A DNA stretch of 48,043 nucleotides, taken from Verrucomicrobiales bacterium (lineage in GTDB: Bacteria > Verrucomicrobiota > Verrucomicrobiia > Verrucomicrobiales > DEV007). The stretch spans positions 1-48,043 of the forward strand of contig JARGNI010000044.1 in NCBI GenBank assembly GCA_029213195.1. Reading direction: 5' to 3'. Every line of letters starts with the position of its first letter. The stretch's first letter is position 1. Both the position numbers and the translations under genes were made by a program. Below, piece after piece: positions 1,194 to 19,800 of this stretch. The notes beneath the pieces were generated by a model, which worked only from the letters and a program-made list of their open reading frames with translations, did no database searches and was not told the origin of the DNA.

Positions 1194-1428
1194 AATCAAT
1201 TTTTGCTCTCGCCTTCTGTGTAGGGCTCGTGCCTCCATCTTCGCCCTGCGAGTGTAGCAGGACAATCCGCGCAACGAAGGGCAGCCCGGGCCGAAGGGCA
1301 CCTTCTACATTCCGATTTCAGAAACTTTTCTTCGTTTGGAATTATCGAAGTTCAATTTTGTGTTCTTGTTGAAACTTGATCAATGTAGTGAGTTGAGCCA
1401 CGATCCACTTTATCTACCCTCCTCACTC

Positions 1429-2796
1429 ATGCTCACTCGTCTGTTTTTTTCGCTTACGTTTTTTCTCGCCGAGATGGTAATTGCTGGGGAGCAAAAGCCG
1501 AATTTCGTTTTTATTCTCGCCGACGACTGCAGCTATCTCGATCTGGAGTTGTATGGGGGGGCCGCAAAAACCCCGCATCTCAACAAGCTGGCGGGCGAAG
1601 GGATGAAGTTCAATCGCTGCTACCAATCCGCCCCGATGTGTTCGCCGACGCGGCAGGCTTTGTATACCGGTCTTTTCCCTGTGAAGAGCGGAGCGTATCC
1701 GAATCATGCGCGAGCCTACGAGAATGTAAAAAGCATTCCTCACTACCTGAAGCGCGTGGGCTATCGGGTGGCTTTGGCCGGGAAAACTCACATTGATCCC
1801 AAGCCGGTATATCCTTTTGAATACATCGACGAATTTGCGGAGCCGGAAGATGAGGATGTTCCGATGATCGATGGATGGCGCTATCCGGAAGTGCGAAACT
1901 TGCTCCGCGAATCGAGCGAAGAGAAGGAACCATTCTGCTTGTTTCTCTGTTCCAATGAGCCGCACGGTCCCTACACAAAGGGCGATCCTGCTCCCTACAA
2001 AGAGGCGAAACTCAGCCCGCAACAGTTCAATTTTCACCGCGAGTCCTACGCAAAGTATCTCGCTGAAATCACTTATTTCGACGGACAGGTTGGCGAAGTG
2101 ATTCGCATGCTCGAGGAACAGGGCCTGCGGGAAAATACGCTACTCATCGCCGCGACAGAACAAGGAAGCGGATTCCCATTCGGCAAATGGACTTGTTACG
2201 AAATGGGCGTGGCGAGCGGGATGATTGCCTCCTGGCCGGGAAATATTGAAGCCGGGTCCGAGACCGATGCGATTGTCGAATACACCGACATCGTTCCCAC
2301 CTTTCTGGATGCAGCAGGAGCCCCCATTCCGGAAGTGCTGGATGGGCGTACACTTCTGCCTCTGCTTCGGGGCGAGACGAATCGGCACAGTCAATACAGC
2401 TACAGCTTGCAGACCACGCGAGGCGTCAACGGATACAAGGCTCCGTTCGGAGTTCGCTCCGTGGTAGGTGGCGAGTATCGCTACATTCGCAATTTGTTTC
2501 CCGAAAACGAGTTCAGCATTCCGGTGTCTCGCAACCTGATGAAAGAGACTGCATTGCTCGACGAAACGGAGAAAGCCCGCGCCGCCCGCTATTTGAACAG
2601 GCCGCCCGAAGAGTTATACCACGTGATCAAAGATCCGTATTGTCAGGAAAATCTCATCGACAAACCGGCACTACAGGAAACCAAAAATCGCCTCGCTGAT
2701 GCTCTCTCTAACTGGATGGATGAGCAGGGAGACACGGGCCGAGATGTCGAATTGGATGCACACGGTCGACAGGCGAATTGGTATAAAAGGAACTGA
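1429..2796 (+). CDS. Secreted S1-family sulfatase (C-x-P-x-R type)
   Basis: The 455-residue product has a signal peptide (residues 1-20) and then the sulfatase metal-binding start PNFVFILADD (D32, D33). The formylglycine motif is CSPTR with C71 as the residue that would be converted. It is the classical C-x-P-x-R form recognised by formylglycine-generating enzyme. GKTH and a later EQGSG segment match the rest of the S1 alkaline-phosphatase-like fold. The overall pattern recalls N-sulfoglucosamine sulfohydrolase-like sulfatases, but the subfamily is uncertain. The ATG at 1429 is chosen because the upstream extension to 1336 would bury the signal peptide. The gene converges on the regulator with only 7 bp between stop codons. 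In context it probably removes sulfate from the glycan attacked by the downstream enzymes. Confidence 0.9.
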   Translation: MLTRLFFSLTFFLAEMVIAGEQKPNFVFILADDCSYLDLELYGGAAKTPHLNKLAGEGMKFNRCYQSAPMCSPTRQALYTGLFPVKSGAYPNHARAYENVKSIPHYLKRVGYRVALAGKTHIDPKPVYPFEYIDEFAEPEDEDVPMIDGWRYPEVRNLLRESSEEKEPFCLFLCSNEPHGPYTKGDPAPYKEAKLSPQQFNFHRESYAKYLAEITYFDGQVGEVIRMLEEQGLRENTLLIAATEQGSGFPFGKWTCYEMGVASGMIASWPGNIEAGSETDAIVEYTDIVPTFLDAAGAPIPEVLDGRTLLPLLRGETNRHSQYSYSLQTTRGVNGYKAPFGVRSVVGGEYRYIRNLFPENEFSIPVSRNLMKETALLDETEKARAARYLNRPPEELYHVIKDPYCQENLIDKPALQETKNRLADALSNWMDEQGDTGRDVELDAHGRQANWYKRN

Positions 2797-2803
2797 GCGT
2801 TTC

Positions 2804-3955
2804 TCACTTCGGATTTCGAAAGGCTGACGGCGGCTGCCCAAGTTTCCGACGGAACAAACGCGACATCATTTCCGGCGAACCGAAGCCGGAGTTTTCGGAG
2901 ATATCCCAAAGTTTGCGGTCCGATTTCTTGATTTCTTTTAAGGCGCATTGGATTCGGCGATCCAGAATTTCCTCGTAAATGGAGCGCCCGATGTATTTCA
3001 CGAAAGCATCGTGCAAACGGCGTGCCGACATCGGAACCTGTGCAGAGACTTGTTCCGGTGTCAGGATTGGATCGGCAAAATGTTCGGCGATATAGCGCAG
3101 AGCCGTGGCGACATGCGGATGGCGTGTCGCGAGAATACTCGTCGATTGCCGAACATGAAGAGCCCCGCATTTCACCCGGATTGGCTCGTCGGGTGAGGAA
3201 CTTCCGCTGAGCAGCTTATTCAAAAGTTCGGCTCCGCGGTAGCCATGATGAAACGCATTGTTGTCGATGCTGCTGACGGCAACCGGAGCAAGTTCGCAAA
3301 TCTCGCGGCAGTTATCCACGCCTAACAGAGCGACATCTTCGGGGATGAATAAATCGGCACGAGCGCAGGCTTTCGTGACCCACTGGGTGAGGTAGTCAGC
3401 CGCTGCCATCACGCCGAAGGGGCGATCTTCGGTCGGAAGATGACGGAGTAACCAGTCGGGACTGCTGTTGCGGGTCACAAAATTGCTGGGCGCTTCGAGC
3501 AATTTTGCATCAAGCCCCAGCGCCTCTGCGGCTTCGCGAAATCCGTCAAAGCGTTCCCGATGAAAATGATTCGGTTCGTGAATGACAAATCCCAGATGCC
3601 GACACCCCAGCGCAGCAAGATGCTCCGCTCCCACTTTTCCAATTCCCGGATTGTCCTGCAAGACACGCGGCAGCTCAATGGAGGAATCATTCATCGAAAG
3701 GTCGACTGTCGGCAGGTGACGGTGGGCTTTGATGAACGCCGTCAATTTTGCATTTTTACCCGGCACATGAAGCATGCTCAGAATGCCGTCGCCGTCCCAC
3801 GAGTGCGGCAACAATCCGGTATGGTAGTAAACCGTGTCGAGAATCCAATTTGCCTCAGCACCAAACTGACAAATGCCTTCCAGCATCCGCTCATCCCGAT
3901 AGCAAGGGAGAAAAAGAATGTGAGGCCGGGATTTCTCTGAGGAGTGTTTTTTCAA
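2804..3955 (-). CDS. XylR-type AraC-family transcriptional regulator with LacI-like sensor domain
   Basis: The 383-residue product has two parts. Residues about 10-265 resemble the periplasmic-binding-protein sugar sensor of LacI/XylR regulators (for example the stretches HLAALGCRHLGFV and EDVALLGVDN). Residues about 275-383 form an AraC double helix-turn-helix, with RYIAEHFADPILTPEQVS and GFGSPEMMSRLFRRKLG. E. coli XylR has the same layout and binds D-xylose. The start codon appears to be TTG (3953-3955): it precedes the sensor domain directly and no in-frame ATG lies upstream. The gene is divergent from the GH43 gene, and a 21-bp-spaced direct repeat lies between them, so it very likely controls the locus. 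The effector is inferred to be xylose or a xylo-oligosaccharide. Confidence 0.9.
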   Translation of the reverse strand: MKKHSSEKSRPHILFLPCYRDERMLEGICQFGAEANWILDTVYYHTGLLPHSWDGDGILSMLHVPGKNAKLTAFIKAHRHLPTVDLSMNDSSIELPRVLQDNPGIGKVGAEHLAALGCRHLGFVIHEPNHFHRERFDGFREAAEALGLDAKLLEAPSNFVTRNSSPDWLLRHLPTEDRPFGVMAAADYLTQWVTKACARADLFIPEDVALLGVDNCREICELAPVAVSSIDNNAFHHGYRGAELLNKLLSGSSSPDEPIRVKCGALHVRQSTSILATRHPHVATALRYIAEHFADPILTPEQVSAQVPMSARRLHDAFVKYIGRSIYEEILDRRIQCALKEIKKSDRKLWDISENSGFGSPEMMSRLFRRKLGQPPSAFRNPK

Positions 3956-3997
3956 AATCCAAGCATAGAGGCAACTGGAACATAAAAAAAGTGAGAA

Positions 3998-4033
3998 TGT
4001 CAGTAATCGACAAGCCCTTGTCAGTGTTCGTCA
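3998..4033. promoter_or_regulatory. Candidate AraC/XylR operator: two 15-bp direct repeats 21 bp apart
   Basis: Two half-sites, 3998-4012 and 4019-4033, fit the consensus TGTCAGTRWTCGWCA and match at 12 of 15 positions. They start exactly 21 bp apart, two helical turns. AraC-family proteins typically bind direct repeats with about this spacing. The site lies between the regulator start (3955) and the GH43 start (4106), where an operator for both would be expected. Confidence 0.6.
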
Positions 4034-4105
4034 TTCACAGGAAGGGATTGTTTTGCTACATTAGTTAAAGTTCGGTAACTGATTTCAGGCCTTTTCGGTT
4101 TAAAA

Positions 4106-5653
4106 ATGATTCAAAATCCCATACTTCCCGGTTTTCATCCAGACCCGTCGATCTGTCGAGTCGGGAATGACTATTACATCGCGACTTCGAGTTTCGAGTG
4201 GTTTCCCGGTGTGCCGATTCATCACTCGAAGGATCTTGTTCACTGGCAATTGCTGACTCACGCACTTGACGAGACGCGGCTTCTCGACTTGCGCGGAGTT
4301 CCGAGTTCGGGCGGGGTCTGGGCGCCTGCTTTGAGTTATCATGAGGGGCTCTTTTATTTGTGTTACACGGTGGTGCATCAGCACGAAGCAGCGACAAAAG
4401 ACACGCCGAATTTCCTGACGACGGCACCTTCGATTGAAGGTCCCTGGTCTGACCCAATTCACATTAACTCATCGGGATTCGATCCTTCACTGTTCCATGC
4501 CGAAGACGGTCGAAAATACTGGCTGAACATGGTGTGGGATCACCGTCCTGAACGTCATCCGTTTCATGGGATCGCCTTACAGGAGCTGGATATGGAAACA
4601 GGCAAATTACTCGGAAAATCCGAGATCATTTTCAAAGGTAGCAATATTCAACTCACCGAAGGTCCGCATCTCTATCAGCGAAACGGCTACTACTATCTTC
4701 TCACCGCGGAAGGCGGAACGGAATACGATCACGCAGTCAGCCTCGCCCGGTCCCGTGATCTGTTGGGGCCGTATGAGGTGCATCCGCAAAATCCAGTTCT
4801 CACTTCATCGGGGCGACCTGATTTACCATTGCAGAAGTCCGGTCACGGTAGTCTCATCGAAACGCAACAGGGTGAGTGGTATATGCCACATCTTTGCGGG
4901 CGACCACTTCCCGGAACGCATCGCTGCAATCTCGGTCGCGAAACCGCAATCCAGAAAATAGAATGGCGAGACGACGATTGGTTGTATCTCGCAACGGAAG
5001 GGAATGCCCCTGCTGATGCTGTGCCCGCGCCAGACTTGGAGGCTCACCCGTGGCCAGAAGTTCCCGGGCGGCTCCCGTTCGATTCGGCCCATTACGTGAC
5101 GCCGAGGCTTCCTTCCAAAAATATCATCCGTGAATCCGATTCGCTAAGATTGATTGGTGCCGAGTCGCTCGAATCGAATTTTGAGCAGGCCATGCTGGCG
5201 CGGCGACTTACCAATCACCAAACGACTGCGAAGACCTGTCTTCGCTTCGAGCCGGATTCGTTTCAACAAATGGCTGGAATCGCGGCCTACTACAATACCT
5301 ATCTCTTTCACTATCTCTATCTGTCGCACGACGAATCGTTGGGCCGCTGCCTGCAGATTCATTCCTGCGACGACGGGACTTCATCCTTTCCACTCGGAGC
5401 GACCCCAGTTCCCGTTCCCGAAGGTCCGCTTTATCTTCGCGCAACCTTTGAATTTTCCGACCTCCAGTTTTCCTGGTCGACCGATGACGAGGTCTTTGAA
5501 AAAATTGGGCCGGTGCTCGACGCTGCGATTCTGTCCGACGATCATGGGGATCACTGGGGATTCACCGGAACCTTCTTTGCACTTGCCTGCCAGGATTTAA
5601 CCGGCGCAAAACAAGCTGCTGAATTCGACTTTTTAGAAATCAAAACATCATGA
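4106..5653 (+). CDS. GH43 beta-xylosidase (bifunctional xylosidase/arabinofuranosidase type)
   Basis: The 515-residue enzyme has no signal peptide and is probably cytoplasmic. It releases xylose from the non-reducing ends of xylo-oligosaccharides. The three GH43 catalytic residues are visible: D13 in GFHPDPSICR (general base), D126 in GFDPSLF (pKa modulator) and E185 in LTEGPHLY (general acid). These positions nearly coincide with the Selenomonas beta-xylosidase (D14, D127, E186). The C-terminal 200 residues look like the concanavalin-like beta-sandwich of this subgroup. There is no Shine-Dalgarno sequence. Its stop overlaps the start of the sugar transporter as ATGA (5650-5653), so the two are co-translated. 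Substrates are presumably imported by that transporter. Side activity on arabinofuranosides is possible. Confidence 0.93.
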   Translation: MIQNPILPGFHPDPSICRVGNDYYIATSSFEWFPGVPIHHSKDLVHWQLLTHALDETRLLDLRGVPSSGGVWAPALSYHEGLFYLCYTVVHQHEAATKDTPNFLTTAPSIEGPWSDPIHINSSGFDPSLFHAEDGRKYWLNMVWDHRPERHPFHGIALQELDMETGKLLGKSEIIFKGSNIQLTEGPHLYQRNGYYYLLTAEGGTEYDHAVSLARSRDLLGPYEVHPQNPVLTSSGRPDLPLQKSGHGSLIETQQGEWYMPHLCGRPLPGTHRCNLGRETAIQKIEWRDDDWLYLATEGNAPADAVPAPDLEAHPWPEVPGRLPFDSAHYVTPRLPSKNIIRESDSLRLIGAESLESNFEQAMLARRLTNHQTTAKTCLRFEPDSFQQMAGIAAYYNTYLFHYLYLSHDESLGRCLQIHSCDDGTSSFPLGATPVPVPEGPLYLRATFEFSDLQFSWSTDDEVFEKIGPVLDAAILSDDHGDHWGFTGTFFALACQDLTGAKQAAEFDFLEIKTS

Positions 5654-7191
5654 AAATCCAAACTCTTTTTATCGCGCTTATTGTTTCGCTGGGTGGTTTT
5701 TTGTTCGGTTTCGATGCGGGAATCATTTCAGGTGTGATGGCTTACGCCAGTCCGCATTTTGCGCTGAGCGATGCGCAAAATGGTTGGGCGACGAGTTGTC
5801 CAACTTTCATTGCGATGTTCTCAATGCTGATCGCGGGAAAGGTCAGCGACATGGTTGGTCGAAAGCCCGTCTTGATCGTTGTCGCTTTTCTTTATGCGAT
5901 ATCCGCGATCCTTTCCGCGTATGCCGTTTCCTACGAAATGCTCTACATCGCCCGCATGATCGGAGGTCTCGCCTTCGGTGCAGCGCTCATTATTGCGCCG
6001 ACTTACATCGCCGAGATTTCCAGCGCGAAGAATCGGGGAAAACTCGTTTCGATTCAACAGCTCAACATCGTTCTGGGATTCTTCGCCGCATTTTTGAGTA
6101 ATTACTTTTTCAACAAGTCGTTTACCGGAGGAGAATCGACATTTCTCACTGAGACTAACGTATGGCGCTGGATGCTCGGAGTAGAGGCTTTCCCGGCGCT
6201 TCTCTATTTTCTCTGTCTCTTTTTCGTGCCGAGAAGTCCGCGCTGGCTCTTCGCCAACAACCGGGTTGAGGAAGGAAAGAAAGTGCTGGTTCGCCTGCAT
6301 GGCGAAGAAGCGGGAGAGACGGAAAGCGAAGCGATTCAAAAGAATCTTTCCGAGGAAAGTCAGGTCGGGAAATCACCCTTCTCCGATCTGCTGAAACCTG
6401 CTCTGCGATACATTCTATTCATCGGGATCGCGATAGGAATTCTTCAGCAGGCCACGGGAATCAACGCAGTCTATTTTTACGCAACCTCGATTTTCACCCA
6501 GACTGGAATCGGATCAAACTCTGCTTTCATGCAAGGCGTTTTGCTCAGTTTTACTTCCGTCGTATTTACGGTCCTGGCAATGCTCACGATCGACAAACTG
6601 GGGCGCCGTCCGCTCCTCCTCACGGGGATCGCCGGCATTGCTGTCTGCATGTTGCTTTGTGGATTCGGATTCGGCAGCGCGACCTATCAACTGACTCCGG
6701 AAAAAATCGCAGCGCTCGAGGGCGTCGACACGGCGAAGCTTGCTGAAGTTCAGGATGTCACCTTCGATTCGGATGTGGCATTCAAAAATAAAATGAAGGA
6801 ACTGCTCGGGGCTCAGGCGTACGCAAAACACGAAGGAGCCATCCTCGAAGCTGGAACAGAAATGAATGCCACGATTGTCCTCGTCGGTGTGATGGGGTTC
6901 ATCGCCTGCTTTGCCTTTTCTCTCGGACCAGTCATGTGGGTGATGCTGTCAGAAATGTATCCAAATAAAATTCGGGGGATGGCGATCGGTTGCGTCGGTC
7001 TCATCAACTCATTCACGGCCTGGCTCGTGACTCAGGTTTTCCCGTGGGAACTCTCAAATCTCGGCAACTCTACGACTTTCTATATCTTCGGCGGCTTCGC
7101 TCTCGTTGGATTTTTCCTCCTCTTCAAGATCCTTCCCGAGACCAAAGGAAAAACCCTCGAGCAGCTCGAATCCGAACTGGTAAAAAGCTGA
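5650..7191 (+). CDS. MFS sugar:H+ symporter, XylE-like
   Basis: The 513-residue integral membrane protein has about 12 predicted helices and the marks of the MFS sugar porter family: GFLFGFDAGIISG in helix 1, SDMVGRKP between helices 2 and 3, GILQQATGINAVYFYA in helix 7, DKLGRRP between helices 8 and 9, and the C-terminal PETKGKTLEQLE. A charged insertion of about 60 residues (around 350-410) precedes the last helices, as in the D-xylose transporter XylE. It overlaps the GH43 gene by 4 bp. The import route for the locus is therefore a proton symporter for xylose or short xylosides, not a SusCD pair. The exact sugar is inferred from the neighbours. Confidence 0.92.
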   Translation: MKIQTLFIALIVSLGGFLFGFDAGIISGVMAYASPHFALSDAQNGWATSCPTFIAMFSMLIAGKVSDMVGRKPVLIVVAFLYAISAILSAYAVSYEMLYIARMIGGLAFGAALIIAPTYIAEISSAKNRGKLVSIQQLNIVLGFFAAFLSNYFFNKSFTGGESTFLTETNVWRWMLGVEAFPALLYFLCLFFVPRSPRWLFANNRVEEGKKVLVRLHGEEAGETESEAIQKNLSEESQVGKSPFSDLLKPALRYILFIGIAIGILQQATGINAVYFYATSIFTQTGIGSNSAFMQGVLLSFTSVVFTVLAMLTIDKLGRRPLLLTGIAGIAVCMLLCGFGFGSATYQLTPEKIAALEGVDTAKLAEVQDVTFDSDVAFKNKMKELLGAQAYAKHEGAILEAGTEMNATIVLVGVMGFIACFAFSLGPVMWVMLSEMYPNKIRGMAIGCVGLINSFTAWLVTQVFPWELSNLGNSTTFYIFGGFALVGFFLLFKILPETKGKTLEQLESELVKS

Positions 7192-7241
7192 TCACCTAAC
7201 CTTGTTACCTCATTGAACCAACTCTGTCAGAACGTTTTATC

Positions 7242-10200
7242 ATGAAGCTACGGACACTCTTTTACCTGCTCCTTTCCCTGTTCGCATTCGTTATTGCCGA
7301 GGCGCAGGAAATCACCGGACGATTTGCTCCGCCAGCCGGAAAAGTTCTCGTGTTCGCGGGGCAGGACAATGAGTCAGTAGGCGGAACCGAAACGTATCAA
7401 AATGGCTACGTGGAAAATATTGGTATCCCCGGGGGCATCACTCATTACGTCTATTTTTCTGAAGGGTGGACCAATGCTTTCGACCGGACCTTTCCCATCG
7501 GCGAAGTCGCTGGATTGAATAAGGAAACAGAATGGGCCTCGGGGCCGATGCACCAAAAAGCGTATCTCGATTCCCCGACACTGGATCCCTGTGTCATGCA
7601 TCTCTCCATTGCGATGGAGGGAAATAACGAGGACAAAGTGGCCGATGGATCTTTCGATCATCTCATCGCGGAGCTGGTGACCTTTATCAAAGAACATCCC
7701 GATCACCCGTTTCTGATTCGACCCGGTTATGAGTTCGATGGAAGCTGGAACAAATACGATCCGGAGAATTTCAAGAAAGCTTTCCGCCGCATTGTCGATG
7801 CTTTGCGGGCCGAGAAGCTTCCTAATTTTGCGATGGTGTTCGCGTCATCCAGCGACGTCAAACCGGGCCAGTTCGAGGAATACGATCCCGGCGGAGAATA
7901 CTACGAGTGGGTCGGCTATTCGTGGTGGGGCGGCGAAAAGGATGCGCAGCCTGCGCTGGACTACGCCCGCAAAGTCGGCAAGCCCGTTTTCATCGCTGAG
8001 GCAACACCGCGGGGCCACTTTTTCGACGAAGAAGATCATGAGGAAATTTGGAACGGTTGGTTTACCAAATTTTTCAATCACATTGACGAGAATATCGACG
8101 TCATTCGCGCCGTCTCATACATCAATGCCGACTGGGATTCGCAGGACATGTGGGATGGCTGGGGCCAAACCAAAATCGAAACAGCTCCCTACATCAAAAA
8201 ACGTTGGTTGGAAAAACTGGCTGAGCCACGATTCATCAATGCAGCAGATGAGCCTTTCAAGCAGATTGGTTTTCCGGCTGAATATGCCGAACCCAAGAAG
8301 CCGGTTGCACCCTACAATAACGCGACGCTGTCAGTGGAGATGCGGGTCGCGGATTTGCTCGGGCGAATGACGATCGAAGAAAAAGTGGGCCAGATCACAG
8401 GCTGGTGGCACTACGACGAACGAAAAATGCAGGAGGAGGGAAAAATCTTCACTCCGGAATTTTTTGCGGAGAAATGCCCCAACGGAATCGGCGAACTCGG
8501 ACCGTTACACAACCTCTCAATCGAAGAGGATGCGAAACTTTACGCAGCCGTGCAGACGTATTTTCGCAAACAAACGCGCCTCGGGATTCCCGCGATTCTC
8601 CACGACGAAGCTGCTCACGGGTTCATGAAATTCGAGGCGAACTCCTTTCCTGCACCAGTGGGAATCGCTTGCAGCTGGAATCCGAAAATGATCACGGAAG
8701 TCTATGCGAAAGCAGCTCAGGAAGCTCGTTCCCGTGGCGTCTCTCATGTTCTCTCTCCGGTAGTCGATGTTTCCCGCGATCTCCGCTGGGGCCGTGTCGA
8801 TGAAACACTCGGAGAGGACCCCTTTCTCGTGGGGCGTCTCGGTGCTGCCATGGTCGAAGGACTGCAAGGATCGACCGACGGGAGCATCGCCGCCGGTCAT
8901 GTTGCCGCGACGCTGAAACATTTTGCAGGCTACGCTGCAACCGAAGGTGGGCGAAACCGGGCTCCGTATTTGCATGGTCCGCGCCAGCTTCTCGACAATC
9001 AGGTGGAGCCGTTTCGCCATGTCATTCGCACCGCAAAGCCCTCCTCGGTAATGGCGGCTTACAACGAAGTGGACGGTTTGCCGTGCCACATCAATCCCTG
9101 GATTCTGAACGATGTCCTTCGGGGAAACCTCGGCTTTGAAGGTCTTATTGTAAGCGACTACCAGGGGATTGATCTGATTCGCCGCTACCAGAAAATCGGG
9201 ATTTCCGACGCCGATGTTGCCCGGATGGCTCTTGAGGCGGGGCTGCAACTGGAACTTCCCAACAACTTCGGTTTTCAACATCTTCCCAAAATGGTGAAGG
9301 AAGGAGCAGTCGACATTGCCCGAATTGACGATGCGGTTCGCGCTGTCCTCGATCTCAAATTTCGTCTTGGACTCTTCGAGGCTCCCGACAAGTTGGACGT
9401 GAAAAAAGCAAAAGCGCTCGCCACTTCTGAAGAAACCCGTGAACTGGCTCGCAAGGCTGCGCGGCAATCCATCGTGCTATTGAAAAACGAGGGCAACCTG
9501 CTGCCCCTGAAACCGGGCGCTCATGAATCTATCGCAGTGATCGGGCCGAATGCAGATGTCTGTCGACTTGGAAACTATTCCGGGCGTCCGCTGAAAACGG
9601 TTTCTCTGCTTCAGGGAGTCCGCAGTCTTCTCGGAGATTCTGCAAAAGTCACCCACGCCGAAGGCTGCAAGATCGCTCACAATGACACAGGCGATTCCTA
9701 CGCGAACTGGCGCTACGTCGACGAGGTGGAATTCGCAACATTGGAAGACAATCAGCCGCTGATCGAAGAAGCGGTCGCAGTCGCGGAGAAGTCCGATCTC
9801 GTCATCCTCGCGCTCGGTGAAAATATTCTACTCGGCCGTGAAGCCTGGGGTGAAAATCACATTGGTGATCGAACGACCTTCGACCTAACAGAGTCACAAC
9901 AGGCTCTCGCCCGCGCCGTTATCGCGACGGGAAAACCGGTCGTTCTTTTCCTTAATAACGGCAGACCAGTCGCCCTCCATGACCTCGGTGATGGTATCCC
10001 CGCAATCCTAACCGCGCACTACGCCGGTCAGGAAACCGGGACCGCCGCCGCCGGTATTCTCTTTGGGAAAACGAACCCATCAGGAAAACTTACGGTGAGC
10101 TGGCCACGTAGCGTTGGTCACATTCCCTCGCACTACAGTCAGCACGGTAGTGCTCGCGTTTTCGATTACGCAGATTCATCACGGAGTGCGGCTTACCCGT

Positions 10201-13200
10201 TCGGACATGGCCTTAGTTATACGACTTTTACCTATGGAAAGCCGGAGCTGTCCGGCAGTTCGCTCAGAGCTGGTGAGTCGGTTGAAGTGAAGTTCGACGT
10301 CACAAATGCAGGCGAACGTGCTGGAACCGAAATCGCTCAATTGTATGTATCGGGAGAAGAATTTTCTATTGCCCGACCGGCGCTGGAGTTGAAAGGGTTT
10401 GCTCGCATTTTCCTCAAGCCCGCCGAGACAAAAAAAGTAACGATCACGCTCGAAGCCGATGATCTCCACTTTCATGACAAATCACTGAACCGCGTCCTTC
10501 CCAAGGGCAAATATCTGATTCGCGTCGGCGGATCCTCAACAAAACTCAGTGATCCGGTTTCGATCCGCACCCAGCCGGGCACCCCAATGAATTTTTCCGG
10601 AGCGCCCTCCGCATCCGGTGCCGCCCCGCGGAAAGACGCGATGCCTCCTGCGGAGCCAAAACCTTTAAGAAAGGGGAAACACCCTAACGTGCTTTTTGTG
10701 GCGATTGACGATTTGCGTCCAGAGTTGGGAACCTACGGCACCAAATGTATCACGCCGAATATAGACAAACTCGCCGAGACCGGAATTCGCTTCGACCGTG
10801 CTTATTGCCAGCAGGCTGTGTGCGGTGCTTCCCGGCTTTCTCTGATGGGTGGGCTCTACCCGACGCTAACTCGAGAGCAATCTTTTCATGTCAGCGGATG
10901 GCGGGAACGTCATCCTGATCTTGTCACGATGAATCAGCACTTTGGTAGTCAGGGCTACGAAACGATCGGTCTGGGAAAAATTTATCACGGTCACACCGGC
11001 AAAGGGATCGATCATGAGAACTGGTCTCGATGGATCAACGTCAACGCGCCGGATTATGCGCTTCCGGAAAATGTTGAAAATCTGAAAGCAGCACTTGAAG
11101 CGAACGAAGTGGGAACGGTACACGACCCTCCCAAGGGGCCACTCACGGAGATGGCTGACGTTCACGACTACACTTACATCGACGGAAAACGATCTCAGGA
11201 AGCGGTCGCAACCTTGAAGAAACTATCGGAGAAAAAAGACCAGCCTTTCTTTTTTGCGGTCGGACTTTCCAAGCCTCATCTCCCGTTTGTCGCCCCGAAG
11301 AAATATTGGGATCTTTATAACCGGGAAGATTTTGCTATGCCGCATAATCGAAAAATTCCTCCCGGATATCCCGAGCATGCAGCCAATCTCGCTGCTCACG
11401 AGATGCACAAGTACAGCGACTACGAAGGCGAACTTCCGACTGATTTTTCCGACGAACTGAATCGACGACTTCTTCACGGCTATGCTGCCGCGACGAGCTA
11501 CGCCGATGCGTGCATCGGTCGTATCATGGATACGTTGGAAAAAACCGGGTTGGCCGAAAATACCATTGTCGTCCTTTGGGGCGATCATGGATTCAAACTG
11601 GGGGATCACAGCACTTGGGTGAAGCACACCAACTTCGAATGCGACACCCGCGTTCCGCTGATCGTTCGTGATCCGCGTATCGATGGAGGCAAGAGCACGC
11701 CGCGCTTGGTCGAGTTGATAGACCTTTATCCGACGCTCTGCGATCTGACCGGAATTCCAACGCCGTCTCATTGCCAGGGCCGCAGCTTTGCAGGATTGCT
11801 AACCGATCCCGAAGCAGGACATCGCATCGACGCCTACAGCACCTATCCTGCTTGGAAAAGTCTCGGGCACAGCATTCGTATCGGAAATTTTCGCTACACG
11901 GAATGGCATGAAGATGAAACAGGCGAAGTGATTGCAAAGGTCCTGACAAACCTCAAAGATGATCCCGGGGAAGAGACGAACGTGATCGACGAACCTAAGT
12001 TTTCCGGGCAATTGGCCGTGGCACAAGAGAGATTAGCGCTCCGAATCTCCCAGAGCACCGCAGCGAAGGCAAAGTCCGCTGTGCCCGAGACAGCACCAAT
12101 TTCATCTATCATCACGATTAATCCTTCCGAAGCGAACCTCCGCCAAACAATAGACGGATTCGGCGGTTCAATCGCATTCTGGGGGACGCATGCCGACGAT
12201 GAAGCGCTTGGTGCGGCAATAGAAGATCTCGACGTTTCCATCGTTCGGGCTCAGGGCGAAGTTTCCCCGGCAGGGGTCGTCGATCACAATCGCGACATCT
12301 TACAGCGGGCCATGAAGCTGAATCCTGACCTGCAGATTCTACTCACTTTCTGGCAGCCGCGGTCCGCTGAGCATCTTGAAAAGGAATACTGGCTGGATCT
12401 GGTCGAAGAGCAATACGAGCTCAAGCCTGATCTCGAAGAGCAATGGGCTGATGAACTCGTTGCCCGCATCCAGCAGTATCTCGACTGGGGCATCAACGTC
12501 ACCGCCGTCGGCATTCAAAACGAATCGAACTGGTCTCATCCCGGAACGCAAACTTGCCGATGGGATCCCGAACGACTCGGAGCGTTCATCACTGAGCGGA
12601 TCAAACCGCGTCTCGAAAAAGCCGGGCTGGCTGATCTCGACATCGCCGCACCCGATCTCGCTTACATCGGTCACGAAGCCAGCGAAGTGAAACGCTTTCT
12701 ACCGACGTTAACGAATCCAGATACAGATATCGCGGCCTATCATATGTACGACAGCTACGGCGATGATATGGATGGGAGCCTTGAGAAGCTGGTTCAGAAT
12801 ACCCGTGAACTTGGCAGGATCAGGCACGACAACTTCCCGAAATCACGTCTCTGGATGACAGAGACTACAGGAGCCCAATGGAACAGCGACGAATGGCATA
12901 CCTACGGTTGGACCCGCGAAATGACCGAGCATGACAAAGCAATCAAAGCAGCACGTTACATTCACACCACCCTCGCCGATGCAGAAGCCAATGCGTTTCT
13001 CTGGTGGGGGCTCGTCTACAGCCTGGCCCCGGAAAAAGTTACCAATCCTGACACACGACAAAAACACCGCGACGAGGGCCTCGTTCTCGTGAGCGAGGTG
13101 CAGGAAAATGCGCGACAGAAATTTCTCGAGCGTACCAGGAAATTTTATACGTTTCGACAATACTCGAACTTCATCAAGCCCGGCTACCAACGCGTTGAAT

Positions 13201-13436
13201 TGAGAGAACCGGAAGCACTTCAAGTCTCTGCATTTCAAAGTCCTGATAGACGCAAATTGGCGGTAGTTGCGGTGAACGATACAGACAGAGGGCAAATGCT
13301 GACGCTCGAAGTGCCCCTTGAATTCAAAGTTGAAGAATCAACCCAGACAGATCAAAACCGAAGTGGCGAGTCCGTCGATGCTGGTACAATCCTTCCTCCT
13401 CGATCGGTCCGGACAGTCGTTTTTCAAAAACAGTAA
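7242..13436 (+). CDS. Secreted four-enzyme fusion: GH26 - GH3 (FnIII) - S1 sulfatase - GH30
   Basis: A single 2064-residue frame carries one signal peptide (residues 1-22) and four catalytic modules. (1) GH26-like, about 25-345: E164 in RPGYEFDGSW and E253 in VFIAEATP are the likely acid/base and nucleophile, and YINADWDSQ recalls marine beta-1,3-xylanases. (2) GH3, about 360-985, with nucleophile D639 in IVSDYQGI, then a FnIII-like domain to about 1105. (3) S1 sulfatase of iduronate-2-sulfatase type, about 1145-1605: NVLFVAIDDLRPELGTYG and formylglycine motif CGASR (C1194), an Ala variant. (4) GH30, about 1620-2064, with acid/base E1761 in GIQNESNW and nucleophile E1874 in MTETTGAQW. Linkers at about 1118-1145 (rich in Pro, Ala and Lys) and 1605-1622 separate the modules. 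None of the inner modules has its own signal peptide, which argues against an assembly chimera. Together they would cut, trim and desulfate a sulfated xylan. It begins 50 bp after the transporter and is probably in its operon. Confidence 0.9.
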   Translation: MKLRTLFYLLLSLFAFVIAEAQEITGRFAPPAGKVLVFAGQDNESVGGTETYQNGYVENIGIPGGITHYVYFSEGWTNAFDRTFPIGEVAGLNKETEWASGPMHQKAYLDSPTLDPCVMHLSIAMEGNNEDKVADGSFDHLIAELVTFIKEHPDHPFLIRPGYEFDGSWNKYDPENFKKAFRRIVDALRAEKLPNFAMVFASSSDVKPGQFEEYDPGGEYYEWVGYSWWGGEKDAQPALDYARKVGKPVFIAEATPRGHFFDEEDHEEIWNGWFTKFFNHIDENIDVIRAVSYINADWDSQDMWDGWGQTKIETAPYIKKRWLEKLAEPRFINAADEPFKQIGFPAEYAEPKKPVAPYNNATLSVEMRVADLLGRMTIEEKVGQITGWWHYDERKMQEEGKIFTPEFFAEKCPNGIGELGPLHNLSIEEDAKLYAAVQTYFRKQTRLGIPAILHDEAAHGFMKFEANSFPAPVGIACSWNPKMITEVYAKAAQEARSRGVSHVLSPVVDVSRDLRWGRVDETLGEDPFLVGRLGAAMVEGLQGSTDGSIAAGHVAATLKHFAGYAATEGGRNRAPYLHGPRQLLDNQVEPFRHVIRTAKPSSVMAAYNEVDGLPCHINPWILNDVLRGNLGFEGLIVSDYQGIDLIRRYQKIGISDADVARMALEAGLQLELPNNFGFQHLPKMVKEGAVDIARIDDAVRAVLDLKFRLGLFEAPDKLDVKKAKALATSEETRELARKAARQSIVLLKNEGNLLPLKPGAHESIAVIGPNADVCRLGNYSGRPLKTVSLLQGVRSLLGDSAKVTHAEGCKIAHNDTGDSYANWRYVDEVEFATLEDNQPLIEEAVAVAEKSDLVILALGENILLGREAWGENHIGDRTTFDLTESQQALARAVIATGKPVVLFLNNGRPVALHDLGDGIPAILTAHYAGQETGTAAAGILFGKTNPSGKLTVSWPRSVGHIPSHYSQHGSARVFDYADSSRSAAYPFGHGLSYTTFTYGKPELSGSSLRAGESVEVKFDVTNAGERAGTEIAQLYVSGEEFSIARPALELKGFARIFLKPAETKKVTITLEADDLHFHDKSLNRVLPKGKYLIRVGGSSTKLSDPVSIRTQPGTPMNFSGAPSASGAAPRKDAMPPAEPKPLRKGKHPNVLFVAIDDLRPELGTYGTKCITPNIDKLAETGIRFDRAYCQQAVCGASRLSLMGGLYPTLTREQSFHVSGWRERHPDLVTMNQHFGSQGYETIGLGKIYHGHTGKGIDHENWSRWINVNAPDYALPENVENLKAALEANEVGTVHDPPKGPLTEMADVHDYTYIDGKRSQEAVATLKKLSEKKDQPFFFAVGLSKPHLPFVAPKKYWDLYNREDFAMPHNRKIPPGYPEHAANLAAHEMHKYSDYEGELPTDFSDELNRRLLHGYAAATSYADACIGRIMDTLEKTGLAENTIVVLWGDHGFKLGDHSTWVKHTNFECDTRVPLIVRDPRIDGGKSTPRLVELIDLYPTLCDLTGIPTPSHCQGRSFAGLLTDPEAGHRIDAYSTYPAWKSLGHSIRIGNFRYTEWHEDETGEVIAKVLTNLKDDPGEETNVIDEPKFSGQLAVAQERLALRISQSTAAKAKSAVPETAPISSIITINPSEANLRQTIDGFGGSIAFWGTHADDEALGAAIEDLDVSIVRAQGEVSPAGVVDHNRDILQRAMKLNPDLQILLTFWQPRSAEHLEKEYWLDLVEEQYELKPDLEEQWADELVARIQQYLDWGINVTAVGIQNESNWSHPGTQTCRWDPERLGAFITERIKPRLEKAGLADLDIAAPDLAYIGHEASEVKRFLPTLTNPDTDIAAYHMYDSYGDDMDGSLEKLVQNTRELGRIRHDNFPKSRLWMTETTGAQWNSDEWHTYGWTREMTEHDKAIKAARYIHTTLADAEANAFLWWGLVYSLAPEKVTNPDTRQKHRDEGLVLVSEVQENARQKFLERTRKFYTFRQYSNFIKPGYQRVELREPEALQVSAFQSPDRRKLAVVAVNDTDRGQMLTLEVPLEFKVEESTQTDQNRSGESVDAGTILPPRSVRTVVFQKQ

Positions 13437-13578: not shown

Positions 13579-14721
13579 TCAGTCTCCGAAGACGCTTTTG
13601 AAAAATGCCATCGCAGTCTCAGCCCATTTTTCTTTGGTATAGAAAACATGGCCCTCACCTTCGACAAGCTTCAATTCTGACTTCGCTCCATGTTCGCGAT
13701 ACTTTGCGTGAAGATCTTTCGAATTCTGAGCATCGTTAACCTTGTCATTGGTAGCATGAACGAGGAGAATCGGTGCGGAATCTCTATCCGCGCTCCAATA
13801 GGGAGACAATAATCGCAGATCTAGACCTGAGGGAAATTTGTCTATTTCTTCCTGCGGCACTTCCTCCAATTGGAGATTTCGCACGCCGGGAGCGAAAGTG
13901 GTGGCTGCCTGGATTTCCGAAGAAACGGTCAATGGAGCGGCACCTTTCTCCGGCCCTTCTAATGACGATTCGTTGCCCGTCGTAGCAAGAACTGCTGTGA
14001 GATAAGCACCTGCTGAGCCTCCTACCGCTCCGATTTTTTCGGGGTTTAAACCGTAAGTAGCAGCCAGATATCGAATCCAACGAACTGCCGCTTTCGCGTC
14101 CTGAACAGGTTCCAAATCAGATTGTATGCCGGGCCTCTTCCGGTAATCGATCGTGACTGCGGCGTAGCCTTGGCTGGCAAAATAGCCGGCGTATCCACCG
14201 AACCAGGCACGGCGATGAACCCGAAAACCACCCCCGTGAATACACAAAATTACCGGGATTTTTCCAGTGAATACCTTCGGCAGGTAAAGGTCACAGCGGA
14301 GCGGGTATCCGTTTCGTGTCGCGTAAATCATGCCTTTTTTGACTTCAACACTCGAGAGATCCGGTTCAAAGCATCGACGATCTTCGATCAATTCCATTCC
14401 TGCCAGCCAGGCTGCATTTTCGAACGATTCTTCCCAATTACTGCTTTTAAGGAACCCGTTTTCTGTAACGCCCTTCATGAGACCTTCGAGCGACGCGCCA
14501 GGATGTTGAATCCCGGTTTTTCCATCAAGGGTTTCGAAATATCCAGCGATCCAATGCTGATAGGCATCGCGTTTTTCTGGAACGATAGCTGCCTTTTCAG
14601 TAGCCCGGAAACGTGTGAAGCTCTCGGTTTCCCGGAGCGTATCTTGATAACCGTCTTCGGCGTTCACAACTAGCATGGAAAGAGAGATAATGACGATGTG
14701 CGCGCGGTGGAAATTTAGCAT
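13579..14721 (-). CDS. Secreted alpha/beta-hydrolase esterase (BD-FAE / acetylxylan-esterase-like)
   Basis: The 380-residue product starts with a signal peptide (residues 1-21, ending VVNA). The C-terminal 260 residues are an alpha/beta hydrolase. The oxyanion-hole motif HGGGF, the nucleophile elbow GGSAG, an Asp in ATNDKVN and a His in GEGHVFY complete a Ser-Asp-His triad. Relatives of this shape (BD-FAE, COG0657 esterases) remove acetyl or feruloyl groups from xylan. The N-terminal 120 residues are not recognised. It converges on the giant fusion gene, and no clear terminator was seen in the 142 bp between them. A 20-bp palindrome sits 31-51 bp upstream of its start. The esterase fold is certain; the acetylxylan substrate is inferred from the locus. 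Confidence 0.85.
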   Translation of the reverse strand: MLNFHRAHIVIISLSMLVVNAEDGYQDTLRETESFTRFRATEKAAIVPEKRDAYQHWIAGYFETLDGKTGIQHPGASLEGLMKGVTENGFLKSSNWEESFENAAWLAGMELIEDRRCFEPDLSSVEVKKGMIYATRNGYPLRCDLYLPKVFTGKIPVILCIHGGGFRVHRRAWFGGYAGYFASQGYAAVTIDYRKRPGIQSDLEPVQDAKAAVRWIRYLAATYGLNPEKIGAVGGSAGAYLTAVLATTGNESSLEGPEKGAAPLTVSSEIQAATTFAPGVRNLQLEEVPQEEIDKFPSGLDLRLLSPYWSADRDSAPILLVHATNDKVNDAQNSKDLHAKYREHGAKSELKLVEGEGHVFYTKEKWAETAMAFFKSVFGD

Positions 14722-15184: not shown

Positions 15185-16705
15185 TCAATCCGCCCGATAG
15201 ACCGGCCACTCGTCGGCGGGAAACGGGTCGTCGGCGTCGAGAACCAGGACTCGCCCATCGTCGAGCGGGAGTTCAGGTGCTTGCCAAGCTGCCTCTTCTC
15301 CACGCCACCAATCTTCCGGTGGCGGTTCGATCTCATCATTCCAGCCCCACTGCGGGGGCACGTCGAGTGGCTCCATCGTCTCGATGTCAAAGGGAGGTCG
15401 GGGCGGCGGTGGGAGAGCAAGAACCCCCTCCCACAGACCGTGAAGGCGCAGAAAGAACTCGACTTCATCCCGCCGGATCATGGTTCCAACTGTCTTCATC
15501 GTTCCCTTGCAGCACGGGCAGATCATCGGATCCTCGCCCCAGATCTTCCAGATGAGATCTCGCCAAAGGGGACGCAGGGCGCGAGCACTTCTCGGCTCGG
15601 GGGGCGGGAGAACAAAGAGTGTCTCAGGCGTAGAAGATTTCGACTGCGCGGGCGCACGCATCACCGGGCGCGGCCGGCCCGCACGAGCATCCATGCCGCG
15701 CCGTTTGTTTGAGTAGAGACCGTAGTATCTCACGGTTTGCTGTCCCTTCGGCGGGATGTGCTCGACGGCGGCGGCGAGGAAGTCGGTAACCTCGAAGATC
15801 TGGAAGTTTTTCTTGGTGTGCCAGCTGCGCTTGGAGCGGTAGATGACCTTCCGGGACGTTTCGTTCCAGGTGATCTTCTCCAATGAGAACGGCGCACGCA
15901 GGAGATACTCCGCAAGCCGCCTGCGTCCGGCGACATCATGGGCGGCGACCGGTTTCTCCCCGGCGTCGAGGCTGAACCCGCTGTGAGTCCAGCCGAGGAG
16001 CTGCCGCGCTTTCTTTTCACTGATGAGCTTCCCCCGCAGCAGTGCCTCGATGAAGCGGTGGCGGAAGAGTTCGCTCAGCGGCTCGATTGACTCGACGGGC
16101 ATCAGGTGAAACCGTCCATCCCGATCCACCAGGCCGGTGGCGGCAAGGACATGGAGATGGGGATGGAAGTTCAGGTAATCGCCGAATGTCTGCACGGCGG
16201 CGACGGCGGCGAGCTTTCCATCCGGCAGATCGAGCCGTGTGCGCATCCAGTCGCGCAAGCACTCGATGCTGACCCTGAAGAGGTGGTCGAGGGGCTTGCG
16301 ACGTTTGCGGAAGATGCCGCGCAGGGGCCGGGGCATCGTAAAGACGAACTGGCGGTGCGGAACCTCGAAGCAAACATCGTGGGCAATCCAATCACCCAGG
16401 GCGCGGACACGGCGCTGGTGGCAGCTGGGGCAGAAATGCCGGGTCTTGCAGGTGAAGGCGAGGAGCTTTTCGTGGCCGCAGTCAGGGCACTGGAGACGGG
16501 TGAAACCGGCTGCGAGGTCGCCGCAGCGGTAGAACTGATTTACAACGTCAACCGTATCGCGGCGCAGCGGACCATGAGTCCTGCGATGGCGGGGTTCGTA
16601 CTGGGCGATGAACTCGTCCCAGGCGTTGTGGACGATCTGCCACAAAGGTGAGGCGCGAGGTCGGCGGGGCCGGTAAACGGAGGGAATAAGTGCTCTTTTG
16701 AACAC
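15185..16705 (-). CDS. IS91-family (HUH-type) transposase
   Basis: The 506-residue protein has the N-terminal zinc-binding region of IS91 transposases (CPDCG, then TRHFCPSCHQRR), the HUH motif FHPHLHVLA in the centre, and a tyrosine-rich segment RYYGLYSNKRRG holding the likely nucleophilic Tyr. A second Cys cluster, CPCCKG, lies near residue 410. It appears complete. The start is GTG (16703-16705) with AAAGGA a few bases upstream, one of the few good Shine-Dalgarno sequences in the window. Such enzymes replicate from oriIS beyond the gene's 3' end and can carry adjacent DNA, which matters for the neighbouring locus. Confidence 0.93.
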   Translation of the reverse strand: MFKRALIPSVYRPRRPRASPLWQIVHNAWDEFIAQYEPRHRRTHGPLRRDTVDVVNQFYRCGDLAAGFTRLQCPDCGHEKLLAFTCKTRHFCPSCHQRRVRALGDWIAHDVCFEVPHRQFVFTMPRPLRGIFRKRRKPLDHLFRVSIECLRDWMRTRLDLPDGKLAAVAAVQTFGDYLNFHPHLHVLAATGLVDRDGRFHLMPVESIEPLSELFRHRFIEALLRGKLISEKKARQLLGWTHSGFSLDAGEKPVAAHDVAGRRRLAEYLLRAPFSLEKITWNETSRKVIYRSKRSWHTKKNFQIFEVTDFLAAAVEHIPPKGQQTVRYYGLYSNKRRGMDARAGRPRPVMRAPAQSKSSTPETLFVLPPPEPRSARALRPLWRDLIWKIWGEDPMICPCCKGTMKTVGTMIRRDEVEFFLRLHGLWEGVLALPPPPRPPFDIETMEPLDVPPQWGWNDEIEPPPEDWWRGEEAAWQAPELPLDDGRVLVLDADDPFPADEWPVYRAD

Positions 16706-16872: not shown

Positions 16873-19800
16873 TTATTCTGCACCCTGCTCCACCTTCCCC
16901 TCCACTTCCACCGGCAGCTTTTTCTTCTCCGGCTCCTCGACCGGTTCACCGCTCTCCTGCACCGGCACGACCTTGATCTCCACATTCACGGGCACGGCGC
17001 GCAAATCCGAGATGATCTTTTCCATCTTCGCCACGGCGTCATCCGCAAGGGTCGCAGGCTTGGCATTCTCTGCCGCCGCCTCGGCAATCACCGACTCGAT
17101 TCGCGATAGACCATCGCCAAACCCGGCCAGCGTCCCCACAACCCGGCTGACGGGATCGTTCTCGCCGGCCCCACCCATGAGGAGATTTCGTCCGAACCGT
17201 CGCTTGATCTCGGTCCAACGCTCCTCGTCCTCGGCGGACAGGGTGCCCTCCATTTCACGGAACTTGAGAAGGTTGGACTCGGCTCCGGTGGTCAGGGTCT
17301 GGGATTCGTTCTCGTAGTGATCGACGATGACTCCCTCGACCTCCGCATCGGTCATGACCGGGAGGATCTTCTCGGCGATCCGATTCATGTTCCGGTAGGA
17401 ACCCTGGAGACGGAAGGGAGGTTCGGTGCGGTAGGCATCCTCCATCGCCGCAGAGCGGATGTATTCGAGATTCACGCGAAGGATCGTGTCCCGGACCCGC
17501 ATCAGTTTTTTCATCACCGAAACCATCTCGTCGATCTCCTGGGGCGAGTAGTTGCCCTCGAAGTCGACGCCTTCGCTCGAACCGGTATCGGCGATCTGCA
17601 TGACCGCGTAGACATCGGACTGACTGCGACTCCCCAAACGACTCAGGACAGCATTCGAGGTGATCGAGTTCTCGATGTAGCTCGCTTCGAAATCGGAGCT
17701 GTGCTCCCCGATGATGTCACCGAGGTTGTAGGTATCGGCCCGGTTCGCGAGCATGTCGGGAATCTGGAATTTCCCTCCGCTCTCGGTGTAGGGGTTTCCT
17801 GCCATGACCACACAGACTTTCTTGCCACGCAGGTCGTAGGTCCTCGGCTTCCCGTTCCAGACCCCCTCAATCTTCCGCTGGGCGTCACAGAGCGAGATGA
17901 ACTTCTGGAGAAACTCGGGATGGGTGTGCTGAATGTCATCGAGATAGATCATGACATTATCCCCCATCTCGAAGGCGAGATTGAGTTTCTGGATCTCCTC
18001 GCGGGCACTTGCGTTGGGTGCCTCGGCCGGATCGAGGGAGGTCACGTCGTGCCCGAGGGCGGGACCGTTGATCTTCATGAAGGTGATGCCGAGACGGTTC
18101 GCGACATACTCCATCAAGGTCGTCTTTCCGTAGCCCGGAGGAGAAATCAGCAGGAGCATCCCCATGCGATCCGTCCGCGTATCGTCGCCCGCTGTTCCCA
18201 TCTGCTTGGCGAGATTGTCTCCGATGAGCGGCAGGTAGACGCGATCGAGGAGACGGTTTCGGACAAAGGCCGACATCACCTTGGGCTTGAACTCCTCGAG
18301 ACGCATCTCCTCGCGACGAGTCTCGATCAGGTCGACCTTGGTGTGCTGGTAGGCAAGAAACGCGGGAACGACATCGGTTTCGAAAGCTTCCAATCGGTTG
18401 GAGAACTCGACGAAGTCCACGGTGAGACAACCGGACTCGATGCGGGAATGTTGCCCCGCAAATCCTTCGAGATCCCGGAACGTCTCGACATGGAGTACGG
18501 CGCGTTTCTCATATTCTCCACAGACCTGCAACCAACTTGCCTCGAGTCGATCATGGGCCGAGAATTCGTCACCGATGACGGTGTCCATCCATTCGGAAAC
18601 GACCTCGAGCCCGTCGACGAAACGCTCTTCGAACCCTTTCATGAGTTCCTGGAAGGCCTTCTGGGTCCGTTTTCCGGTCAGCTCTCGCTGAAAATTTTCA
18701 AAGCACTCTCCCGCCCCTGGCGATACCACGGTCGGTTCACCGGCGAGGCATTGATCGATCCAATACCGGGCCGCTCGCTCCGGTGAAGCTTCCGCCCACC
18801 ATTCGGCACGGGACTGGTACTCTTCCCGGATCATCGCGAAAACATCCGCGACGCTCTCAACCAACCGAGTTCGTCGATCCGAAACATCGAACTTCCCGGA
18901 AAGAAGAGAGGCGGATTGGATTCGCTCTTCGATGCGGGATCTCCATTCGGGATCCGCGATCGCCCAGGCCAATCGGGCGAGAACTCGATCCGTGGCCGAG
19001 TAGCGGACCAGTCCAATCTGCGCATCGATCTCGATCAAAGCCTCCAGCAGGAGCAACGCATCTTCATCATGCACCCCTTTGGTGTAGCCCTCTTCGTAGC
19101 GATTGGACATGAAGGCCTGCAGGACATTACGACGTTCCTCCGGAGTCGTCTCAGCCCACTGGGATCGGACTTCTTCGTGATCCGGCGAACGAAGAAACTT
19201 CCAGGCGAGAAATTCAGCGCGATAGACCTGAGGATTCTCCGAAACCACGGACATCTCGGCCACTTCACCCGCGTTCAGGAGGATCTCGTCGGTCACTTCC
19301 TCGAAATACTCGGTACCCGACAGGTGGAAAGCGGGACTCGGCTTGGCGCCCCCCCAATCATGAGGCACGATCGACAGCTCCAGTTCCTGCTGGTTGACGG
19401 AAAACTGCTTGGCTCCCAGGCGAATGACATTGGTACCATCGACAAAAAGCTCCTTGCGATCCTTGAGCTGGCGCACCGCGTCATCTCTGAGGGTCTTGAG
19501 TCGGGTGCGCACATCATCGGCCTTGACCGAGTCACCCAACTCGGTCAGTTCGTCGATGATATCGCGAACCTTCTCGACCATGAGATCCCCGGCGAGATAG
19601 CCATTGATCTCGGAAATCTCTTCGAGCTGAGCAACCCGATGCTGGATCGTGGTCAGGATTCGTCCGGCCGATCGATGCAGGGTCGAGGAGCGCTGATTCC
19701 GTTTCTCGAGAAGCTGCAGCTTCCTCGATTCAAAGGCATTGTAGATCTCGTCTCGCTTCTCGACGATCTGGGCGACATAGTCGTCGAACTCGGCAAATTT

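Follow-up and report, generated by a model that had tools for sequence, protein, structure and literature searches.

Can one secreted polypeptide carry four enzymes, and if so, on which polysaccharide would they act? This question is raised by a locus in a Verrucomicrobiales draft genome (GCA_029213195.1), here analysed over positions 1 to 48,043 of contig JARGNI010000044.1; this whole stretch of 48,043 nucleotides is called the window. At window positions 7242-13436 (+ strand) lies a single frame that starts with ATG, contains no internal stops and encodes 2064 residues. Its modules are ordered GH26-GH3-S1-GH30 (three glycoside hydrolase families and the S1 sulfatase family), with one N-terminal signal-peptide-like stretch and with linkers between the inner modules. 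The reading to which we give a probability of roughly 70% is that the protein is a single-chain saccharifier of sulfated marine xylan, probably beta-1,3- or mixed-linked. The frame is divided as follows (residue limits of the modules are approximate).

7242..7301, + strand: signal peptide, residues 1-20; hydrophobic N-terminus MKLRTLFYLLLSLFAFVIAEA, with similar N-termini in most relatives
7302..8276, + strand: GH26 module, residues ~21-345; acid/base E164 at 7731-7733, nucleophile E253 at 7998-8000
8337..10550, + strand: GH3 module with Fn3-like C-terminus, residues ~366-1103; nucleophile D639 at 9156-9158
10551..10679, + strand: GH3-S1 linker, rich in Pro, Ala and Ser, under relaxed selection
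10680..12056, + strand: S1 sulfatase module, residues ~1147-1605; formylglycine cysteine C1194 at 10821-10823, within CGASR
12057..12134, + strand: S1-GH30 linker
12135..13436, + strand: GH30 module, residues ~1632-2064, and stop; acid/base E1761 at 12522-12524, nucleophile E1874 at 12861-12863

Identity of the four modules

A Pfam scan gave no match for the first 350 residues of the protein. A sequence search of the PDB, on the other hand, matched residues 21-360 to the GH26 beta-1,3-xylanase XYL4 (2ddx, E 3.5e-29) and to AlXyn26A (7xjr, 4e-22), and the GH26 family profile matched the module at 1.6e-36. Both E164 and E253 align with Glu residues of 2ddx and 7xjr; E253 corresponds in the alignment to position 243 of AlXyn26A, the position that is altered in entry 7xs3. 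Sequence comparison thus places the first module in the GH26 branch of beta-1,3-xylanases and mixed-linkage xylanases (MLXases). XYL4 is described as strict for the beta-1,3 linkage, and AlXyn26A as also cleaving mixed-linked xylan (PMC12706835).

The second module is recognised by Pfam as GH3 N (residues 418-704, 207.5 bits, cut-off 27), GH3 C (744-993, 183.4 bits, cut-off 31) and Fn3-like (1030-1099), with the nucleophile D639 sitting in VSDYQG. Its closest relative in the PDB search is the beta-xylosidase 7zb3 (1.9e-150); the NCBIfam beta-xylosidase/alpha-L-arabinosidase model scores 543 bits, under its cut-off of 1050.

Pfam assigns the third module to Sulfatase (1148-1505) and SGSH_C (1454-1596). 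Sulfatases carry the formylglycine motif C/S-x-P/A-x-R; here CGASR is present at C1194, together with the metal and active-site residues D1156, D1157, D1448 and H1449. The closest solved chain is 6hhm, entitled 'S1_7 ulvan-specific sulfatase' (2.8e-90 by sequence), with iduronate-2-sulfatases next. For the fold, the S1-GH30 part was modelled with AlphaFold2 from an alignment (mean predicted local distance difference test score, pLDDT, 84.7); a single-sequence prediction (pLDDT 35.7) was discarded. The S1 part of the model superimposes on 6hhm with a template modelling (TM) score of 0.90 and a Z of 45.3, at 37% identity across 435 residues; in both sequence and modelled fold the module is closest to S1_7 members. 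The enzyme in 6HHM, P18_S1_7, is reported to take the 2-sulfate off xylose in ulvan (PMC9096561). The genome also encodes 14 matches to the formylglycine-generating enzyme (FGE) family, which are candidates for maturation of the sulfatase.

For the C-terminal module, Pfam found only Glyco_hydro_30C at 17.8 bits, below the cut-off of 22, and NCBIfam gave weak GH30 matches. In a phmmer search of solved structures, residues 1626-2064 matched GH30 enzymes, with AcXbh30A as the best match (8.4e-17), and a profile search with the module recovered 23 sequences at E <= 1e-5, again with AcXbh30A best (3e-22). Residues 482-924 of the model match GH30 xylanases at Z 36-39, with the barrel and beta-sandwich fold of that family. 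The last module is thus a GH30 module, predicted to be of the xylanase/xylobiohydrolase type; AcXbh30A itself is described as a xylobiohydrolase, which releases xylobiose (PMC8453022).

Taken together, the Pfam scans, PDB sequence searches, profiles and S1-GH30 model bear out the four family labels that had been given in the original prediction, which was made from the letters of the sequence, and the catalytic residues named there (E164, E253, D639, C1194, E1761 and E1874) are all present. The single signal peptide that it described is also seen, as judged, for the window protein and for its relatives, by a hydropathy heuristic rather than by SignalP.

Recurrence, conservation and history of the fusion

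The original prediction held that the modules form a true fusion and suggested a search for the same domain order in other genomes. Genome contigs were scanned using a GH26 alignment and two peptide patterns, an approach that finds close relatives only, and 39 related loci were confirmed (loci are numbered L, genomes G). In 15 of these the order GH26-GH3-S1-GH30 is found in one frame without a scaffold gap, in seven Planctomycetota and eight Verrucomicrobiota bins (phylum taken from the record title or tree label). The fusion is therefore real, and the suggestion of a unique architecture has to be given up. Two further loci (L063 and L079) have a four-module frame that runs across scaffold gaps, and in L072 all four modules are ordered around a 301-base gap; these three were left out of the count, and L056 and L070 were kept despite scattered single Ns. 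An apparent GH43 fusion in L079 was rejected as a scaffold-gap artefact. That four separate genes were wrongly joined in the window might be suspected, given that it is a contig of a draft genome with 115 contigs; however, a 93.7% identical contig spans GH26-GH3 and the beginning of S1, and because 15 other assemblies hold the four modules in one gap-free frame, misassembly is excluded in practice, its chance being negligible.

The remaining loci show other forms. Fifteen of the 39 reach the contig end still in frame, and four frames stop after GH3 (L065, L067, L078 and L061, the stop of L061 being at the contig end). A Pirellulaceae bin has a GH26-GH3-GH10 frame of 1551 residues (L064:9812-14464), in which the C-terminal half differs and the GH43 and transporter genes are retained. 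In a Lentisphaerota locus (L076, the same locus as L042) GH43, major facilitator superfamily (MFS) transporter, GH26 and GH3 follow in the same order as separate genes, with a GH10 gene on the opposite strand. Two genomes (G020, L099:5800-8358; G029, L100:3920-6493) have S1-GH10 xylanase fusions; outside the four-module family, no sulfatase closer than theirs was found.

In whole genomes that were sampled, the GH26 module is rare: it was seen in 3 of 56 relatives, in 9 of 386 genomes of the order and in 14 of 387 of the phylum, where it is mostly distant and unfused (own genome counted where listed), and in 18 of the 241 genomes of the family to which the Rubripirellula genome G728 belongs. 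At E <= 1e-60, 2 of 112 genomes of the order (the own one among them) have the GH30 module, in fused frames in both cases.

Residues were counted over distinct relatives, with L019 dropped as a copy of L084. Of these, 39 of 40 retain both GH26 Glu and 35 of 37 the GH3 nucleophile Asp; the sulfatase Cys is present in all 26 fused modules; and for GH30 the two Glu are retained in 20 of 21 and in 19 of 20, respectively. L020 (all three of its modules) and L084 (GH3) are the exceptions. All four modules are under strong purifying selection and the linker less so: among computable pairs, the ratio of nonsynonymous to synonymous substitution rates (dN/dS) of GH26, GH3, S1 and GH30 is 0.04-0.10, with S1 down to 0.034, and that of the GH3-S1 linker is 0.21-0.41. 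The 74-codon S1 stub of the pair window/L022 gives 0.17, and several values of the pair L066/L081 are saturated. In planctomycete members (L049, L052, L060, L062, L063 and L077) the same linker has tandem repeats of the pentapeptide HSGVP, with the number of HSGVP-like units varying from 4 to 8; the window linker has none by the same count.

These data bear on the idea that the fusion is real and at least one module merely binds, its catalysis lost, so that the protein would not be an all-in-one enzyme. The L020 relative has indeed lost the checked catalytic residues in all three modules, and the GH3 nucleophile of L084 is changed; nevertheless every residue checked in the window (the GH3 acid/base not among them) is intact, as in nearly all relatives, and the modules evolve at dN/dS ~0.03-0.10, which makes this idea quite improbable. 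The L020 protein (L020:5493-10190, in G029, of the same genus as the window) is of separate note: it is an intact GH26-GH3-GH30 frame of 1566 residues without sulfatase, its replacements across the three modules are E to P, E to Q, D to Q, E to G and E to D, and it is a triple pseudo-enzyme, perhaps with a role in binding xylan or in sensing.

In the S1 tree, with 10 of its 31 inner branches open, all 23 of the fused S1 modules included fall into one clade, with a support of 96 in the Shimodaira-Hasegawa-like approximate likelihood ratio test (SH-aLRT); their sisters are the S1 modules fused to GH10 (G020 and G029), followed by a lone S1 gene of the own genome. This tree supports a single origin of the S1 recruitment. 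A tree of GH26-GH3 (35 rows, quick search) has the phyla intermixed, and the 17 Planctomycetota rows as a single clade are rejected by the approximately unbiased (AU) test (p-AU 2.6e-8), a value to be read with the limits that the tree was seen before the test, that two rows are very long and that bins can be wrong. Transfer between the phyla is suggested by this tree. Overall, the picture resembles an operon that has been folded into a single chain, and the tree is compatible with genes either fusing or splitting.

A contig of G363 (L022/L046), whose GH26 module is 96% identical and whose genome belongs to another family of the order, was considered as a case of recent horizontal transfer between families, an idea that was rejected. 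The best relatives of the contig's flanking gene (58-66%) are in the window's family f1, with none in f2 (62 of 189 matched genomes); because this gene points to f1, the contig was treated as probably mis-binned and was not used. The shared DNA (93.7% identity, window 1415-10901 against L022:4620-14128) has a sharp left edge near 1415 and runs to the contig end.

Neighbouring genes and the probable substrate

In the window the gene order is S1_8-like sulfatase, XylR-like regulator (opposite strand), GH43, MFS sugar transporter, fusion, esterase and IS91-type transposase. The genes upstream of the fusion are these.

1336..2796, + strand: second sulfatase; closest solved chains are an S1_8A sulfatase and N-sulphoglucosamine sulphohydrolase
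2804..3955, - strand: XylR-like regulator, with sugar-binding domain and AraC-type helix-turn-helix (Pfam)
4106..5653, + strand: GH43 beta-xylosidase without signal peptide (Pfam; xylan beta-1,4-xylosidase 1yrz, 1.2e-174)
5650..7191, + strand: MFS sugar transporter, overlapping the GH43 gene by 4 bases (Pfam Sugar_tr, 8.5e-105)

In 33 of the 39 loci the GH43 beta-xylosidase, which is probably intracellular, is encoded upstream of GH26; for five of the remaining six the corresponding DNA is missing. In 28 of these 33 a transporter, belonging to one of two MFS types, separates GH43 from the GH26 gene, and a transporter is also seen in L065 and L067, whose contigs begin inside it (30 of 39 in total). 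A relative of the S1_8-like sulfatase (at least 59% identity) occurs in 12 of the 39 loci, on either side of the fusion. The esterase (13579-14721) was dropped as a locus member, having no relative at E <= 1e-25 in the 39 loci. The own genome encodes the xylose isomerase XylA.

The protein is read as a saccharifier of a sulfated xylan, the substrate guessed in the original prediction. This reading is well supported by comparison: for each of the four modules the closest characterised relatives handle xylan, xylosides or xylose-2-sulfate; the neighbours are a XylR-like regulator, a GH43 enzyme and a sugar transporter; the sister sulfatases are joined to GH10; and a described beta-1,3-xylan locus, that of strain EA2, has genes of similar kinds (PMC12125979). 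Red algae are a source of sulfated mixed-linkage xylans. From these comparisons we infer not only the activities but also the position of the sulfate, the linkage type, the order of the steps and their location. The protein would be secreted, to the periplasm or outside the cell, where the GH26 module would cut beta-1,3- or mixed-linked xylan within the chain. The S1_7-type module, with C1194 converted to formylglycine, would then remove sulfate (probably 2-O on xylose) from the products; the GH30 module may trim or cut the desulfated beta-1,4 stretches, perhaps to xylobiose, and the GH3 module would free xylose. Xylose or short oligomers would be taken up by the MFS neighbour, and the GH43 beta-xylosidase would complete oligomer breakdown inside the cell, at which point xylose isomerase would take over.

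Several observations weigh against this reading or against parts of it. The GH30 subfamily signals are split, sequence favouring GH30_10 (AcXbh30A) and structure putting the GH30_8 enzyme XynC slightly ahead, and with a predicted TM score (pTM) of 0.53 the S1-GH30 model predicts no fixed arrangement of the two modules. Reviews disagree on mode of action, P18_S1_7 being called endo in one (PMC9096561) and S1_7 exo in another (PMC8360166); moreover, because S1_7 also includes iduronate-2-sulfatase and kappa-carrageenan sulfatases (PMC6388578, PMC9096561), membership in it does not fix the exact sulfate position. L084 has Glu in place of the GH3 nucleophile Asp, and no GH43 was found within 10 kb upstream of its fusion; for the XylR-like regulator, only L046 among the 39 loci has a relative at E <= 1e-25. 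In the GH26-GH3 tree the unfused L042 stands beside four-module members (support 84, on a long branch) and the GH26-GH3-only forms make up one nested clade (support 93), so that fission or loss is possible. Finally, the main text of the paper on the beta-1,3-xylan locus of strain EA2 contains no 'sulfat-' word (PMC12125979).

The same four-module enzyme could instead act on another xylose-bearing sulfated polysaccharide, such as a xylorhamnan resembling ulvan or a phytoplankton polymer rich in xylose. Among solved sulfatases the closest is an ulvan enzyme, the pairing of S1_7-type and S1_8-type sulfatases in the locus resembles the ulvan set described for xylose-2-sulfate (PMC9096561), and many hosts are, by their record titles, open-ocean bins. 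Against this stand the three GH families, each with closest solved relatives active on xylan or xylosides, the GH10 modules of the sister forms, and the Pfam result, which showed neither an ulvan lyase nor a rhamnosidase in those window genes that were scanned; we regard such a substrate as unlikely. A sulfated xylan stays the preferred substrate. A wider proposal, which we hold tentatively and at somewhat less than even odds, is that a polysaccharide utilization locus (PUL) has had its extracellular arm folded into a single polypeptide, in which an endo-xylanase, a xylosidase, a desulfating enzyme and an exo/endo-xylanase act as one particle on sulfated mixed-linkage xylan, and that this unit is shared across Planctomycetota and Verrucomicrobiota by gene transfer and swaps its C-terminal half as a cassette (S1-GH30, GH10, or S1-GH10 alone). 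If this is true, sulfated xylan would be a sizeable, overlooked food of ocean bacteria.

Other large proteins were seen in the course of the analysis. Beside the xylan locus the window encodes an IS91-type transposase (15185-16705, - strand) and a DUF3686 AAA-type protein of 1704 residues (16873-21987, - strand). Elsewhere in the own genome are a 3017-residue frame with GH2, TraB/gumN, two sulfatases, GH43 and a 3-keto-disaccharide hydrolase domain (L092:3986-13036), adjoined by a GH127-F5/8-sulfatase frame of 1310 residues, and two giant sulfatase fusions, DUF7133-HEAT-cytochrome c-S1-S1 (L093:3-6683, part of a frame of 2596 residues) and S1-ThuA-DUF7133-CBM (L094:4938-10001, part of a frame of 1782 residues).

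Comparison with known systems

Algal sulfated polysaccharides are hard to degrade and are relevant to ocean carbon. From a conserved chain in which all four modules suggest xylose chemistry one can predict a substrate, sulfated xylan, as well as a division of labour, and the protein offers a ready-made tool enzyme for seaweed xylans. With its relatives it provides a natural series, made up of separate genes, GH26-GH3, GH26-GH3-GH10, GH26-GH3-S1-GH30 and a form whose catalytic residues are lost; such a series lets one ask how and why an operon turns into one protein.

A published description of a GH26-GH3-S1-GH30 protein was not found in the open PubMed Central (PMC) literature searched. In kind, sulfatase-glycoside hydrolase fusions are known. 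P36 of Formosa agariphila, from an ulvan PUL, is like the window protein a secreted-pathway enzyme in which an S1 and a glycoside hydrolase module act in sequence (GH78 rhamnosidase and S1_25; PMC8511951, PMC8360166); as described there it differs in having two modules, a rhamnose substrate and a Bacteroidota host, whereas the window protein has four catalytic modules of other families. Other examples are the Kiritimatiellales S1_7-GH10 fusions PDESU_06089 and SCARR_04194, in which, within the Planctomycetes-Verrucomicrobia-Chlamydiae (PVC) superphylum, S1_7 is joined to a xylanase family; GH26, GH3 and GH30 modules are absent from them as reported, and S1_7-GH32 fusions are recorded in the same source (PMC6388578). 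The Planctomycetes P1 and P2 have multi-domain sulfatases (34 and 21 genes), making sulfatase-glycoside hydrolase fusion a habit of the group, but the account of these genes in PMC4807772 describes no GH26-GH3-S1-GH30 order. The EA2 locus, like the window, brings together GH26, GH3, GH43, an MFS transporter and XylR-type regulators, but, as presented in its main text, as separate genes (PMC12125979). GH26-GH3-S1-GH30 is thus apparently an undescribed, larger and conserved form of a known kind of fusion. What is new here is that it has more catalysts per chain than the known examples found, in a defined order that is conserved in two phyla and within a conserved locus.

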